DNA of 59,338 nt, from NCBI GenBank assembly GCA_005800655.1, contig SYEV01000090.1:1-59338 (forward strand), read 5' to 3'. Under the pieces are notes generated by a model, which worked only from the letters and a program-made list of their open reading frames with translations, searched no databases and was not told the origin of the DNA. A program made the position numbers and the translations under genes. Shown piece after piece: positions 8,497 to 36,683 of this stretch; position 1 is the stretch's first letter; the number at the start of each line of letters is the position of its first letter. Source of the stretch: Bacteroidota bacterium (GTDB lineage Bacteria > Bacteroidota > Bacteroidia > Chitinophagales > Chitinophagaceae).

Positions 8497-9423
8497 CTAC
8501 ATGCCATCTGCGTCGGCAACTGCTTCCACAGGATCTTTTTGTTTCTTTAAACTATGGTTGACTACATACACACCAACCAAAGTACAGAGGGTTCCTATAA
8601 TACTGGTTACCGACATTTTTTCATCTAGTAGTAAGGATCCCACCCAAATAGCCACTATCGGATTTATATAAGCATATAAAGAGGCAATCGCAGGTTGCAA
8701 ATGCTTCATGCTATATATAAAAGAAATAAATGCAAAAACGGAGCCGCCCAAAACCATATATACGAGTACGCCCCAGGTGCGCCCAGGAATACTTTGTAAT
8801 GGAATATAATTATTGGAATACAAAGCAACCATTGCCATGACAGCAGAAGAAATCAACATTTGCCATCCAATGGAATAATAAGCGTTGATATCAATTTTAT
8901 TTCTTGCAATGATGACTGATCCAACACTCCATGTTACCGTAGCAAATAAGGACAACGCTACACCTAATGGATAATTGGTGCCATGCATTTGTAAACTATC
9001 CTTGTAAAAAATAAAAACAATACCCAACAAGCCTAACATTAAACCTATAAAAGTACCAAGGGTTATTTTAATAGCTTTAAAATAAAATCGTTCAATCAAC
9101 ACAACTGATAAAGGATAAAGTGCGGCAATTAATGCAGCAAGGCCACTAGTGATAAATTGAAGTCCGTAAGTCGCAATCCCATTGGAGGAAACAAACATTA
9201 ATAAGGACATGGGGATCAGCCACAAAAACTGTTTTTTTGTTGGCAATCCTGCCCCCTTCATTAAAAAGAAACAAACATAGATACTGCCGCCTAAAAATTG
9301 GCGCATACTTGCAAATTGAAAAGCTGGAACTTGTGAAATACCCATTTTGCTTGCCACCCAAGTGGTGCCCCAAACGATACTTGTAACCGCAACGGCAAAG
9401 TATGCTTTTTTATTATTGGACAT
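8497..9423 (-). CDS. EamA/DMT-superfamily transporter
   Basis: A 308-residue inner-membrane protein with about ten hydrophobic segments arranged as two EamA repeats of five helices each. The first covers roughly residues 7-140 (SIVWGTTWVASKMGI at the start) and the second 155-290 (TWSVGSVIIARN and ending VGVYVVNHSLKK). Members export or import small metabolites such as amino acids, and the substrate cannot be read from sequence. It ends in TAG, convergent with lutB across 44 bases. purH lies 49 bases upstream on the same strand. Confidence 0.9.
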   Translation of the reverse strand: MSNNKKAYFAVAVTSIVWGTTWVASKMGISQVPAFQFASMRQFLGGSIYVCFFLMKGAGLPTKKQFLWLIPMSLLMFVSSNGIATYGLQFITSGLAALIAALYPLSVVLIERFYFKAIKITLGTFIGLMLGLLGIVFIFYKDSLQMHGTNYPLGVALSLFATVTWSVGSVIIARNKIDINAYYSIGWQMLISSAVMAMVALYSNNYIPLQSIPGRTWGVLVYMVLGGSVFAFISFIYSMKHLQPAIASLYAYINPIVAIWVGSLLLDEKMSVTSIIGTLCTLVGVYVVNHSLKKQKDPVEAVADADGM

Positions 9424-16183: not shown

Positions 16184-18409
16184 TTACATATTAAACCAAT
16201 AACTAAATTTAAATATAAGAGCCCTACTTTTATTTTTAAATAATGGATCTGTAAAATAATTGTCGGTGTATACTAAAAAAAAGTCGCTCATTGGTTGGTA
16301 CCTATATTGCAAACGACTATTAATATTAAAGTTATTGCTTTGGGTATTGTACTGTATAAAAGTAGTCCAAAATAATTGGGTATTAAAATTGTATTCAACC
16401 CGAGGTGCAATTAATAATAATTTGGTGCTGCCATATTTTCCAGGCAAATTAATATTGTTTAGTTCTGCTCTCAATCGAATATTCAAATTAGGCTGATTAC
16501 GCCATTGAATTCCGGCACTTATTCCTCTAATCGTTCCATTATAAAAATGACCAATTCTAGCATCGCCAAACCAACCTAATTCCTTACGTGTGTCTGACAT
16601 AAAGCTGATTAAAAAATTGCTATATTGATATCTTTGCGCAGGTAAAGGGGTGCCGCCTGTGAATGACGTGGGAAATATTAAATCCACTAGATTGTTTGCT
16701 AATTTCGCTTTTAAATTGGAAGAGTTTTTAAAGTCGGTCTGTATGCCAAATTCGGTCGTACTTTCATTTAAGGTATTATCGGGATTCAGTACCGTATAGT
16801 TTTCTAATTGCACTTCAAATTTTCCAATTTTTCCATTGGGCGGTTGTGTTAAATATGTTAATTGCGCATAACTATTTTTATAACCCATTCTTATCACTGT
16901 ATCTCTTAGAGCATCGTAATTATTTATACGTTCAACAAAACCCATATCGGTGTAATAATTCTTACCTAAGTTTCCAATTTCAAGCACTGTATTCCAATGC
17001 TTGCGATTGGTAGCTATTCCTACATCAACATAGGAATTGAGGTCTGTTATAGTAGCTTTCATGGATTGATGGTAGGTAGCCCATGAACTAAAACTTCCTG
17101 GAGCATTGGAATATTCAAATGTAATACCTGCATTACGACCATATCTGTCCAAAGGATTTTTTATTGCTTCTTCTTTTGAAATGTAATTTTCACGATTTAA
17201 AAAGTAGCCTTTAATTTCAGACCTTTTTAATATTCTTTTATGTAAGGTGAAGGCAGAAAAATTTTCAGGACTATAATCTCCTTGTCTTCCAGTTTGCATA
17301 TTCATGACACCAATTCTTGTTCCAGGTGCTAAATTACCAGACAATCTGGCGCCAAATAAAATAGGAATTCTATTTCCTTGCTTATCTAATCCAATCGTCC
17401 TTGAATAAAAAGGGCGTACAGGTGGAATGCCAAAATTGGCGAAGAGATCAGAGTTTTCAATGAAAAAATTTCTTCTTTCAGGAAGAAAAATATTAAAGCG
17501 GGTTAAGTTAGTTACTTGCTGATCCACTTCCACTTGTGAAAAGTCGGGATTGACAGTGACGTCTAAGTTTAGTGAAGTATTTAATGCTACTTTTGCATCA
17601 AAACCTGCGTTGCCATTGGCATTTAAGCTTTTATTATTTAGCTTATCTTCATTAGCAGTTCCAGTGATATAGGGTTGAATAATTAAATTATTTGAATTGA
17701 TGGGGGGTGCAGTAGGCCAATGTATCACGCCTGTATACCCCAAATCATAGGACCTAAATGTAGGTGGCACTTTGGCCCAGGTATTGTATTGCACATTTTT
17801 CGCATCAATACGAATAAAATTGATACCCCAATATTTTTGATTCGGATCATACCTTAATGATTTTAAAGGAATCATTATTTCTGCCACCCAAAAATTACCA
17901 TAGTCCTTGGTTGCCGAAAACCATTTAGTATCCCAACTCCAATCGCTCATCCGTTCTGTGGAACTACTTAACTGATCTTCGGATTGCACATTTAAAGCGC
18001 TTAAAACAAAAAAGAAGCCATTTGTTTTTTGATTCAATGGGTCAAGCACAATACCAATGCCGTCATTACCATCGTGTCCCACATCTCTTTTTAAACTTTT
18101 GATAATAGCAGTACCGCTGTCGTATACCTTAAAGGCAAAGTAAATATTTTTATCATCAAAGGTGAATCGTACTTCTGTTTTTCTTTTTGCTTCGCCTATA
18201 TTATTGGGAAATTTTTTATTATCAGCATGGGTAAAATTTGCACTAGCCCAAATCGCCTCATCCAAAATACCATCAATTTTAATGACATCAGTTGCTTTAA
18301 TTAAATCAAGTTGATAGTCTTTTTGAAATTCAGTGATTTTTTGTGCTTGACATTTTGTTGCAAAAGCAATGGAAAGACAATAAAAAACAAGGTTTCTGAT
18401 CAAGCGCAT
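16184..18409 (-). CDS. DUF5916 outer-membrane protein with N-terminal CBM9-like domain
   Basis: A 741-residue secreted protein with a signal peptide (FYCLSIAFATKCQA). An N-terminal CBM9-like sandwich follows (about 40-220; IDGILDEAIWASANF is the typical opening). The DUF5916 region (about 240-741) is rich in alternating aromatic residues and ends in ALIFKFSYWFNM, as expected of an outer-membrane barrel. VTVNPDFSQVEVDQQVTNLTRF and FLPERRNFFIEN are family signatures. The function is not established; a carbohydrate or surface role is guesswork. It is followed closely by adeC. Confidence 0.85.
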   Translation of the reverse strand: MRLIRNLVFYCLSIAFATKCQAQKITEFQKDYQLDLIKATDVIKIDGILDEAIWASANFTHADNKKFPNNIGEAKRKTEVRFTFDDKNIYFAFKVYDSGTAIIKSLKRDVGHDGNDGIGIVLDPLNQKTNGFFFVLSALNVQSEDQLSSSTERMSDWSWDTKWFSATKDYGNFWVAEIMIPLKSLRYDPNQKYWGINFIRIDAKNVQYNTWAKVPPTFRSYDLGYTGVIHWPTAPPINSNNLIIQPYITGTANEDKLNNKSLNANGNAGFDAKVALNTSLNLDVTVNPDFSQVEVDQQVTNLTRFNIFLPERRNFFIENSDLFANFGIPPVRPFYSRTIGLDKQGNRIPILFGARLSGNLAPGTRIGVMNMQTGRQGDYSPENFSAFTLHKRILKRSEIKGYFLNRENYISKEEAIKNPLDRYGRNAGITFEYSNAPGSFSSWATYHQSMKATITDLNSYVDVGIATNRKHWNTVLEIGNLGKNYYTDMGFVERINNYDALRDTVIRMGYKNSYAQLTYLTQPPNGKIGKFEVQLENYTVLNPDNTLNESTTEFGIQTDFKNSSNLKAKLANNLVDLIFPTSFTGGTPLPAQRYQYSNFLISFMSDTRKELGWFGDARIGHFYNGTIRGISAGIQWRNQPNLNIRLRAELNNINLPGKYGSTKLLLIAPRVEYNFNTQLFWTTFIQYNTQSNNFNINSRLQYRYQPMSDFFLVYTDNYFTDPLFKNKSRALIFKFSYWFNM

Positions 18410-29309: not shown

Positions 29310-30479
29310 TTAATTATCCTTTGCAGATTTCCTTGTAAAGGATTTATTCATGAATTTCAAAAGGCGAACTTCTTTTTCTGCTAAAAAACGCCATTTACCT
29401 CTGTCCACATTTTTCTTGGTAAGGTTGGCGAACATAACTCGGTCCAAATGTCTCACATCATATCCTAAGTGTTCAAAAATGCGTCTTACAATTCTGTTAC
29501 GACCACTATGAATTTCAATACCAATGACATCTTTTGAAGTATTAGATAAATAACTTACTGCATCAGCTGCAATAAATCCATCTTCCAAATCAACCCCTTT
29601 TGCAATGGCTTCCATATCTGCTTTAGTAACTGGCTTATCCAAGGTTACTTCATAAATCTTTTTAATTTCATAAGAAGGATGGGTTAGCTTCTGCGCCAAG
29701 TCACCATCATTCGTTAATATCAAAACTCCAGTCGTATTTCTATCAAGTCGACCTACTGGAAACATGCGTTGTGTAGTTGCGTTTTTAATAATATCCAACA
29801 CCGTTTTTCTGCCTTCAGGATCACTCGCTGTACAAATATAATCCTTGGGTTTATTTAATAATATATAAACAGGGGTTACTTGTAATTGTAATACTTTACC
29901 TTTTAAGCGAACAACATCTTTGTATTGTACTTTATAACCGGGCTCTAAAATAGTATCACCATTGATGGTAACATGTCCCGATTTTACCATGGCAGCTGCT
30001 TCACGTCGACCAGAAATACCCGCATGTGCAATGTACTTATTCAATGGCATTTGCTCATAAGGGGTATCAGCCGCCGCATTTACTTTACCAATGGAAGCGG
30101 TTCTTTTTTCATCCGCTTTATCCATGGATGCAGGTGTTCTTTTGCTAGCCGATGTTGGACGCGTTGTTGTAGGACGCGATGCATGAGAAGGGGTTAGTTC
30201 ACCATATTTTGGTTGGGCATCTTGAAAGCTTTTGCGCGTGCTTGGTTTTTTTTCATAGCCAGTTGTTTTTTTGGCATAGGGTCCCTTTGCATACTTTTCT
30301 CTAGGAGGATCGGTAACAATGCCTCTTGCTTTATCTATTTTTCTTTGTCGTGCAGCTTCGCCCATGGCCCTTGATTCGGCTTTGGCTTTTTTCTTATCCT
30401 GTCTTATATTTTCTTTGACAGCGCTTCCCTTTTTTTTAAGAGAAAATTTATCAAAATTATCAGTTCTATTTTTTTTCAT
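29310..30479 (-). CDS. RluB/RsuA-type pseudouridine synthase with basic N-terminal extension
   Basis: A 389-residue enzyme in three parts. Residues 1-140 are a low-complexity Lys/Arg/Thr/Ser-rich extension with no fold visible. About 144-190 is an S4 RNA-binding domain (LNKYIAHAGISGRREAAAMV). From about 203 comes the RsuA-type catalytic domain with Asp246 in GRLDRNTTGVLIL and the late GRNRIVRRIFEHLGYDV motif. E. coli RluB modifies U2605 of 23S rRNA, and this is the likely target. The start is 12 bases after the end of the full rlmN frame, so it is probably co-transcribed with rlmN. Confidence 0.9.
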   Translation of the reverse strand: MKKNRTDNFDKFSLKKKGSAVKENIRQDKKKAKAESRAMGEAARQRKIDKARGIVTDPPREKYAKGPYAKKTTGYEKKPSTRKSFQDAQPKYGELTPSHASRPTTTRPTSASKRTPASMDKADEKRTASIGKVNAAADTPYEQMPLNKYIAHAGISGRREAAAMVKSGHVTINGDTILEPGYKVQYKDVVRLKGKVLQLQVTPVYILLNKPKDYICTASDPEGRKTVLDIIKNATTQRMFPVGRLDRNTTGVLILTNDGDLAQKLTHPSYEIKKIYEVTLDKPVTKADMEAIAKGVDLEDGFIAADAVSYLSNTSKDVIGIEIHSGRNRIVRRIFEHLGYDVRHLDRVMFANLTKKNVDRGKWRFLAEKEVRLLKFMNKSFTRKSAKDN

Positions 30480-30491
30480 TGTGCCGTGCTA

Positions 30492-30719
30492 TTAAAAATT
30501 ATCCTTGTTGGCAAGCTGTCCACAAGCGGCATCAATATCCTTGCCACGGCTTCTTCTTACCCTAACATTTACCCTGTTTTTTTGTAATGCAGTTACAAAA
30601 TTTTCAAATCCATCTTCATTGGGTTTGTCAAATGGAAATTTATCAATCGGGTTGTATTCAATGACATTGATTAAGTCCGCAGGAACTTGACGATATATTT
30701 TTGTTAATTCAACAACGTC
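30492..30719 (-). pseudogene. rlmN: Separated C-terminal part of rlmN, in frame after a TGA
   Basis: This segment continues the rlmN frame directly after the TGA at 30720-30722 and runs 75 codons to a TAA at 30492-30494. It encodes the conserved RlmN C-terminus, including INVIEYNPID and RRSRGKDIDAACGQLA. The cysteine in the latter (residue 340 of the full frame) corresponds to E. coli Cys355, the residue that carries the methyl group. It has no start codon of its own at the break. Confidence 0.9.
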
Positions 30720-31541
30720 TCACTCGCTATCGTTAAAATCTTTAAACAAAATATATTCAAATGTAATTTCGCTACCCGTTTTTTTATAAAAATAATTAAG
30801 GGCTTGAATTAATGCTTCAATATTATTGCTTTCATTGATCGGCATAATTTCATTCCGTTTTTTATCATTTGCGGCATGTAAGGACAAGGCTAATTTAAAG
30901 CGTACTTGATCATCGCCTAATTGTCTAATTCCTTTGGCAACACCAGCTGTTGAAACGGTGATTCTTCTTTGGCTCATGCCCAAACCATCCTTTGCTGAAA
31001 TTCTTTCTACCGCTTTTAAAACATTCTTATAATTCAATAAGGGCTCACCCATGCCCATAAATACAATATTCGATAATGATTTTTCGTGGTGCTTTTCACT
31101 TTGTTGATTAATCATGACCACCTGATCATAAATTTCATCATAGCTTAAATTTCTTTTGCGTTCCATATATCCTGTCGCGCAAAACTTACAACTTAAACTA
31201 CAACCAATTTGTGATGAAACGCATGCGGTTTTACGCTCACTGGTTGGAATTAATACACCTTCAATCATATGATGATCAAAAGTTTCAAATCTGGTTTTTA
31301 AAGTACCATCCTCACTTAATTGCGTCGTATTTAAGGTAAGGGCAGGAAGCGTAAAATTGGCTTCCAACTGCTGACGAAGGTCCTTACTTAGGTTGGTCAT
31401 TTCATCAAAGCTATGCGCATGCTTTTGCCACAGCCATTCGTGTATTTGTTTTACGCGAAATGATTTTTCTCCTATTTGCCCTATAAATCGTTCAATGTCA
31501 GCGATTTCGAGTTGTCTGATATTAACTTTAGTATGCTCCAT
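30720..31541 (-). CDS. rlmN: RlmN 23S rRNA/tRNA adenine-C2 methyltransferase, interrupted by in-frame TGA
   Basis: Radical-SAM enzyme that makes 2-methyladenosine at A2503 of 23S rRNA and A37 of some tRNAs. The N-terminal accessory domain covers about residues 1-95. The Fe-S motif is C114-x3-C118-x2-C121 in GCSLSCKFC, and Cys107 corresponds to E. coli Cys118. The frame meets TGA at codon 274 after FKDFNDSE. The same frame then encodes the rest of a normal RlmN, giving 349 residues in total. Without that tail the protein lacks the essential methyl-carrier cysteine and should be inactive. A TATCTTTG -7 element lies 4 bases before the ATG. Confidence 0.93.
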   Translation of the reverse strand: MEHTKVNIRQLEIADIERFIGQIGEKSFRVKQIHEWLWQKHAHSFDEMTNLSKDLRQQLEANFTLPALTLNTTQLSEDGTLKTRFETFDHHMIEGVLIPTSERKTACVSSQIGCSLSCKFCATGYMERKRNLSYDEIYDQVVMINQQSEKHHEKSLSNIVFMGMGEPLLNYKNVLKAVERISAKDGLGMSQRRITVSTAGVAKGIRQLGDDQVRFKLALSLHAANDKKRNEIMPINESNNIEALIQALNYFYKKTGSEITFEYILFKDFNDSE

Positions 31542-34916: not shown

Positions 34917-36149
34917 GTGATGAAAAAATTGGTTTTATTATCCGTTAGTGTGGTTTTAGCATTGTCAAGTGTAATTGCGCAAGTAGTTCCGGTTTCTCCG
35001 TTAGCGGAGGGGGTGAAGTTGTTGAATTATGAAAAAAATAAATCCGCCTTGGCGTTCTTTAAAGAAGCCTTAGATAAAAATCCTACCAATACGGAAAATA
35101 TTTTTTGGTACGGGGAAGCTGTTTTAGCGGAGCAAGGTTCTGGTATGCCAAGTGATACGACTATTAAAAAAGCGAAAGCAATTTTTCAACAAGCGTTGCA
35201 AGTTGCGGGAAATGATCCTTGGTTATTAGTGGGTATGTCACACGTGCAATTATTAGAAGGAGCTGATGTAAATGCAGTAAAGCAAAATTTAGAAGTTGCA
35301 TTGACGTCCACTTTGCTTACTAAGGGCAAATTTAAGGGAAAACCTAATCAAGATATTGTTAATGCCATTGGTTATATACACGCTGAAATCCCTAGCAATA
35401 TTGGCGATCACAGATATGCGATTGATAAATTAAAAGAAACAATTTCTGCATATGAATCAGTTGTAAATCCTAATCTATTTATTAATTTAGGTATTAACTA
35501 CTTGAAATCGGGCGGTGAAAATGGCGGAGAAGCGGTGACTGCATTTCAAGAGGCAATATCACGCGATCCAAAAAATGCTTTTCCTTATTACAGAACTGGA
35601 AGAGTGTATCAAACGCAAAGTAACAAGGAGTCATTTGATGAATATTATAGCAAAGCGATTGCTGCAGATCCAACTTTTCCTCCGGTTTATTTCGCTTTAT
35701 ATTCCTATTATGCAGATCTAAATACACAGTCAGCAACAGAGACTGCAAAAGTGAATTTGGATTTGTTTTTAAAATATGCGGATAAGGATCCCTCCTTAGA
35801 CATTTTTAATGCGGATTATCTTTTCCGTGCCGGACAATATGATGCATCATTAGAAAAAGCAAAAGCTTTAGAAGCCTCTATTGGAATTGCTGCTTTACCT
35901 AGATTAGGGGTGTTATTAGCGTATAACTATGATCGTAAAGGTGACTCAGTGCAAGCAAAAACATATATTGAAAATTTCATGAGTAAAAGTACTGCTGATA
36001 AGATAGTTACTAGTGATTACGAATTAGCAGTTAGGATTATATCTCGTTTTAGTGGCAACCAAGTAGCATTAGCTGCTTTATTAGAAAAGGCAATTGCAGC
36101 TGATACGGCTAGGGTAAATAAGCTTAAATATTATAAGTTAGGGTATTAA
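34917..36149 (+). CDS. Secreted TPR protein, N-terminal part (in-frame TAA)
   Basis: A 410-residue product with a signal peptide (KKLVLLSVSVVLALSSVIAQ) and TPR repeats along its length, for example NYEKNKSALAFFKEALDKNP, then AVTAFQEAISRDPKNAFPYY, then SFDEYYSKAIAADPTFPPVY. The frame stops at TAA 36147-36149 after KYYKLGY. The very next codon in the same frame is ATG, and TPR-type sequence continues to 36683. The undisturbed protein would be about 588 residues. No enzyme motif is visible. A periplasmic scaffold role with the PstS-like lipoprotein is plausible. Confidence 0.85.
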   Translation: MMKKLVLLSVSVVLALSSVIAQVVPVSPLAEGVKLLNYEKNKSALAFFKEALDKNPTNTENIFWYGEAVLAEQGSGMPSDTTIKKAKAIFQQALQVAGNDPWLLVGMSHVQLLEGADVNAVKQNLEVALTSTLLTKGKFKGKPNQDIVNAIGYIHAEIPSNIGDHRYAIDKLKETISAYESVVNPNLFINLGINYLKSGGENGGEAVTAFQEAISRDPKNAFPYYRTGRVYQTQSNKESFDEYYSKAIAADPTFPPVYFALYSYYADLNTQSATETAKVNLDLFLKYADKDPSLDIFNADYLFRAGQYDASLEKAKALEASIGIAALPRLGVLLAYNYDRKGDSVQAKTYIENFMSKSTADKIVTSDYELAVRIISRFSGNQVALAALLEKAIAADTARVNKLKYYKLGY

Positions 36150-36683
36150 ATGTTAGAAAAAGCTAATATGTATTCCGATGAATTAAAATGGTATGCGAAT
36201 TATTCAACCCTTAGAGGTATTAAGGATGAAGTATATTATTATAAAACAGCAAGTATTGCGGCAAATGCAAAAGAGGGCGCTATTGCAAAAGCAATATCAA
36301 TGGAATATATCACGGCCTTCCCTGATAAACCAAATGGGTATTCATTTAATGTGAAAGCAGCTAGATTATTGGATACAGCAAACAATTTAGGGGTACTTTT
36401 TGAAACAGTTACCCTACAAAATCAGTTTTTGTCTAAGGATATGACTAAAAACAAGCAAGCCATGGTCAACAACTATTATACCATGATGGGCTATTATAAT
36501 GAGACCAAAGCATATGAGCAAGCAATTGCGATGTGTGATAAGGTTTTAGAGCTTATTCCTGCGGAGCCACAAACTCTGAAAATCAAGGAAAGTTTGACTA
36601 AAAACTGGGAAATCATTAAAAAAATGCAATCTGGTGGTAACCAAAAAGCGGCCACCGATACGACGCAAATTAAAAAAGGATAA
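36150..36683 (+). CDS. C-terminal part of the split TPR protein
   Basis: 177 residues beginning MLEKANMYSDELKWYANY immediately after the in-frame TAA of the preceding gene. It has TPR features (YNETKAYEQAIAMCDKVLEL, then IPAEPQTLKIKE) and ends in a polar tail. It lacks a signal peptide, so it would not be exported if made alone. The TAA-ATG junction could allow reinitiation, but a single substitution (GAA, CAA or AAA to TAA) splitting one gene is the simpler reading. Confidence 0.8.
   Translation: MLEKANMYSDELKWYANYSTLRGIKDEVYYYKTASIAANAKEGAIAKAISMEYITAFPDKPNGYSFNVKAARLLDTANNLGVLFETVTLQNQFLSKDMTKNKQAMVNNYYTMMGYYNETKAYEQAIAMCDKVLELIPAEPQTLKIKESLTKNWEIIKKMQSGGNQKAATDTTQIKKG

Follow-up and report, generated by a model that had tools for sequence, protein, structure and literature searches.

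A single in-frame TGA ahead of the methyl-carrier cysteine of rlmN in a Chitinophagaceae genome, likely a nonsense mutation of recent origin or a wrong base in the consensus

The rlmN gene described here lies on the minus strand, at positions 30492-31541, of a 59,338-nucleotide stretch of DNA from an environmental Chitinophagaceae genome (contig SYEV01000090.1), which was analysed as a whole and is referred to as the window. Its reading frame runs for 273 codons, encoding the N-terminal and radical-SAM domains, meets an in-frame TGA at 30720..30722, and continues in the same frame for a further 75 codons up to a TAA, the first part with its stop occupying 30720..31541 and the remainder 30492..30719. 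This frame, with its coordinates and lengths, had been proposed in an initial annotation and was confirmed. The gene next downstream, on the same strand at 29310..30479, is an open frame with S4 and PseudoU_synth_2 domains.

The NCBIfam RlmN model (TIGR00048, profile length 355) matches the first piece over positions 4-272 and the second over 278-346, with the cut-off passed by the first piece but not by the second. The tail contains the motif DAACGQLA, whose cysteine is residue 340 and aligns with residue 355 of the E. coli RlmN chain 3rf9_A, in agreement with the earlier proposal that it corresponds to E. coli Cys355; with the relative L031 as query, both the CSLSCKFC stretch (the radical-SAM CxxxCxxC motif) and Cys340 align with this chain. 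Cys355 has been described as the methyl carrier of RlmN (PMC4689488; PMC11194073). Since the Cys340 codon lies 3′ of the TGA in the rlmN frame, a protein ending at this TGA lacks the methyl-carrier cysteine. The window gene resembles known RlmN (TIGR00048; E. coli 3RF9) in that its two pieces jointly span nearly the whole profile, with the catalytic cysteine in place, and differs from it in being broken by a TGA ahead of that cysteine. No second RlmN was found in the genome assembly, which comprises 1.9 Mb in 116 contigs and is 88% complete.

Comparison of rlmN with its counterparts in relatives, a check proposed in the initial annotation, drew mostly on metagenome-assembled genomes, many of them labelled Sediminibacterium, Chitinophagaceae or Bacteroidetes. 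The 110 fetched loci that cover the TGA site represent 93 distinct rlmN sequences, some genomes having been reached twice; one is the genome's own copy, with TGA, and the 109 others all carry a sense codon and never a stop. AAA was found in 75 of these, AAG in 13, AGA in 10, CAG in three, CGT and GAA in two each, and CGA, CGC, CAA and CCT in one each. The residues encoded (Lys, Arg, Gln, Glu and Pro) bear out the claim that the position is a variable one. In the nearest locus, L031, the site reads CGA (Arg) between flanking bases identical to those of the window; the two genes differ at 44 of 1047 bases, mostly in third positions (40 sites), and their proteins at one residue besides the TGA. 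The two nearest entries of the protein collection, P0001 (four differences including the TGA site) and P0002, are likewise full length with Arg at this site. Truncated 273-residue alleles elsewhere were considered and rejected, the sole protein of that length among the best 120 of 7999 scored proteins, P0070, being derived from the window's own contig. Recurrent interruption of the gene was also rejected, as the 14 stop-flagged relatives among the matches listed carry a terminal stop only. The rlmN search gave no match in one of 60 genomes (G031) and in 18 of 394, many of these being incomplete.

Changes private to the window copy were counted at sites where L031, L032 and L033 agree, and the TGA codon is thus not among them. 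Seven synonymous and no non-synonymous changes were obtained, five before and two after the TGA, so the nonsense event looks young. Together with the CGA codon of the nearest relative, this pattern supports the original suggestion that one base change, be it a mistake in the assembly or a recently arisen null allele, accounts for the stop. With a probability of roughly 86%, we regard the rlmN TGA, which occurs in no relative examined, as either a nonsense mutation that arose recently by a change of one base or an erroneous base in the consensus, with the protein stopping at residue 273. UGA would terminate translation at this codon as in other bacteria with RF2, and because of this most of the product would be a truncated, inactive RlmN of 273 residues that lacks the methyl-carrier cysteine. 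E. coli without rlmN survives with very small growth defects, as reported in PMC11194073, which makes a null allele credible. The natural loss-of-function rlmN alleles described in PMC13158455 are similar in that a small change affects a non-essential rRNA methylase gene; they differ in that the reported case concerns another organism and a frameshift, for which an association has been reported, whereas the window case comes from one assembly and is either a true allele or a base error. Counting against the preferred reading, the tail remains in frame and shows no amino-acid change of its own, though only two private changes fall there.

At least four genes besides rlmN are broken in this genome. 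In 873,666 bases (46% of the genome), two TGA, one TAG and one TAA nonsense codons and one frameshift were found, rlmN included. Within the window, a TPR-repeat gene on the plus strand (34917..36683) is cut by a TAA at 36147-36149; it forms a single frame of 588 residues in the sister G555, and the TAA site reads GAA in two relatives and GAT in a third, with ATG as the following codon. The second TGA lies at codon 117 of a LuxR-type regulator (L157:15604-16323, corresponding to G000:C34:35607-36323, minus strand), where TGG (Trp) is found in 10 of 10 relatives, and the adjoining penicillin-amidase gene carries a one-base frameshift. An in-frame TAG splits an SRAP gene (L166:17480-18214, minus strand) into halves that match positions 42-108 and 113-210 of a profile of 214. 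This last break was detected by coding potential and Pfam rather than by locus comparison, in a search confined to the genome itself; of the many same-frame neighbours, two pairs beyond the known cases were checked with Pfam, of which the SRAP pair proved to be a split gene and the other two separate genes. In 687,174 bases of the sisters, two TAA codons and one frameshift were found. The sister G555 has a TAA and a frameshift of its own (L236:16123 and L237:5157) in homologues of window positions 16184-18409 and 8497-9423.

The locus comparison covered 60,492 codons between all loci of other genomes and this genome and 77,395 between the ORFs of this genome and the sisters. Stops close to either end of a gene, and small or unsupported ORFs, were not counted. 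Several further candidates were discarded: the TGA that ends L157:13426-15081 lies beyond a one-base frameshift and is not in frame; the two TGA and one TAA matched to L165:19108-19473 rest on an ORF antisense to a longer ORF, and no TGA break was retained in the sisters; and seven of eight other stops in loci of other genomes (four TGA, two TAG and one TAA) each rest on one spurious-looking query ORF, a judgement not proved for each. From codon usage, random nonsense changes are expected to give about 50% TAA, 25% TGA and 25% TAG, and two TGA, one TAG and one TAA are unremarkable against this expectation (P 0.26 for at least two TGA among four). C:G to T:A transitions, which arise frequently by mutation as well as through DNA damage in libraries, fit three of the four nonsense codons if the SRAP site is taken to have been a Trp codon, Trp being the usual residue of the family there. 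That single genes are broken in several different ways, both here and in the sister assemblies, counts in favour of a recent nonsense mutation or base error. What weighs on the other side is that two of the four nonsense codons are TGA, one of them in place of a Trp codon that all 10 relatives compared retain, as would suit UGA read as Trp, and that the tRNA-Trp of the genus bears features associated with readthrough of UGA.

UGA is still a terminator, though a rare one, in this genome and its sisters. ORF ends were counted for ORFs of at least 100 amino acids over the same 873,666 bases of the genome and 687,174 bases of the sisters G554-G556, some of the stretches overlapping. The genome's own 657 ORFs end with TAA in 504 cases, TAG in 128 and TGA in 25, two of these TGA being the in-frame cases, and the 517 sister ORFs end with TAA in 388, TAG in 116 and TGA in 13. 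The 55 ORFs chosen in the window end with 42 TAA, 13 TAG and no TGA, rlmN being counted at its TAA. When the RF2 model was run over the assembly, RF2 was not found; the only match, below the cut-off, is a gene that we take to be RF1 from its motifs. RF2 was found above the cut-off in five of six near sisters and, across the genus, in 126 of 147 genomes. The sister block that holds RF2 is matched here only beyond RF2, by a contig that starts there at its own base 1, and the missing RF2 is therefore what an assembly gap would be expected to produce. Loss of RF2, which the window's lack of TGA terminators and the search of the assembly had suggested, was accordingly dropped as a candidate, the RF2 block being missing at a contig end and TGA terminators being present outside the window.

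The alternative that survives best is that UGA is leaky, the tRNA-Trp(CCA) of the genus inserting Trp at the rlmN codon often enough for some full-length RlmN with Trp274 to be made and the nonsense allele to be tolerated. The tRNA-Trp of the sister G555 has anticodon CCA and a 27-43 mismatch. A pattern search recovered tRNA-Trp in 42 of 60 genomes, and within the genus in 22 of 37. The 27-43 pair is mismatched (C with U) in 20 of the 22 genus genomes, with a closed stem in the other two; among eight genomes examined outside the genus, the 27-43 mismatch occurs in two and an inner mismatch in one. Across the genus tRNA-Trp loci (L243:5660-5731 and L261-L290) the 27-43 pair is mostly open, and position 24, in our own numbering, is A in the common form. 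According to PMC13092985, E. coli reads through UGA when a tRNA-Trp(CCA) whose top pair is unpinned is overexpressed, G24A has a like effect, and low UGA usage accompanies such tRNAs. As the tRNA-Trp of the genus shares these features, some insertion of Trp at the rlmN UGA is possible, and both the rarity of UGA as a terminator in this genome and the TGA in place of a conserved TGG in the LuxR-type gene fit with it. The resemblance to the UGA-reading tRNA-Trp(CCA) with a 4-bp anticodon stem lies in the open top pair; the difference is that no recoding signal is seen here, UGA still terminating and near sisters having RF2. The same source reports that most bacteria with unpinned tRNA-Trp keep the standard code, that its E. 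coli test relied on overexpression and that, in a test it cites, C27A alone gave no readthrough in vitro. The genome's own tRNA-Trp was not assembled, no other rlmN locus among the 109 has TGA, an open-stem tRNA-Trp does not explain the TAG, TAA and frameshift breaks, and two TGA among four nonsense codons do not exceed chance. We therefore consider leaky decoding of the rlmN UGA unlikely. In the whole assembly (G000), no more than 10 tRNA genes were recovered with the tRNA model, and each of them lies on the minus strand of its contig.

Programmed readthrough gated by a hairpin, making RlmN self-regulating, was also raised in the initial annotation, and we judge it highly improbable. A small hairpin can indeed be drawn directly 3′ of the TGA (30681..30719, minus strand), but it is unremarkable: the 39 nucleotides after the TGA fold with -4.7 kcal/mol, no better than shuffled sequences (z -1.08; 31 of 200 shuffles fold as well), and the 63 nucleotides from the TGA on give z -0.18, with a minimum-energy fold that differs from the proposed hairpin. 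The hairpin bases 3′ of the site are identical in L031, which has CGA, so the stem did not arise together with the stop. Programmed stop-codon readthrough in which the stop is conserved in relatives does not fit either, as none of the 109 other loci shares it, and breaks by TAG, TAA and frameshift elsewhere in the assembly likewise oppose the gated reading. Increased misreading of UAG has been reported for an E. coli rlmN deletion strain (PMC11194073); a feedback loop through an effect of rlmN on stop misreading is speculation.

Reading UGA as selenocysteine was rejected, as the tRNA-Sec model gave only matches below its cut-off, at tRNA-Leu and tRNA-Glu genes, in the 88% complete assembly. 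UGA as Trp had first been suggested by the LuxR-type gene and was dropped as the main reading once breaks of other kinds (TAG, TAA and frameshift) had come to light. No tRNA-Trp(UCA) is among the 10 tRNAs recovered, the genome's own tRNA-Trp being unassembled and that of a sister having CCA. Reassignment of UGA to Trp in this genome after RF2 loss is scarcely credible: the two in-frame TGAs and the RF2 missing from the assembly speak for it, but the RF2 block is absent at a contig end, five of six near sisters have RF2, 25 of 657 ORFs still end in TGA where a reassigned codon would be absent as a terminator, and two in-frame TGAs are all that were found in 46% of the genome.

Taken alone, the rlmN TGA amounts to a commonplace gene defect or an assembly mistake at one base, and it calls for caution: before a lone in-frame stop in a metagenome-assembled genome is put down to recoding, the site should be compared with relatives and the other breaks should be counted. 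A broader picture, which we think quite improbable, would be a Sediminibacterium-like genus with leaky UGA, in which the tRNA-Trp(CCA), with its unpinned anticodon stem and A24, would insert Trp at UGA, new UGA nonsense alleles such as those of rlmN and the LuxR-type gene would be partly suppressed, and which would represent an early stage of UGA capture with RF2 still present. The tRNA-Trp lead nevertheless yields a question that can be tested, namely whether, in bacteria whose tRNA-Trp has an open anticodon stem, nonsense alleles with UGA are better tolerated than those with UAG or UAA.
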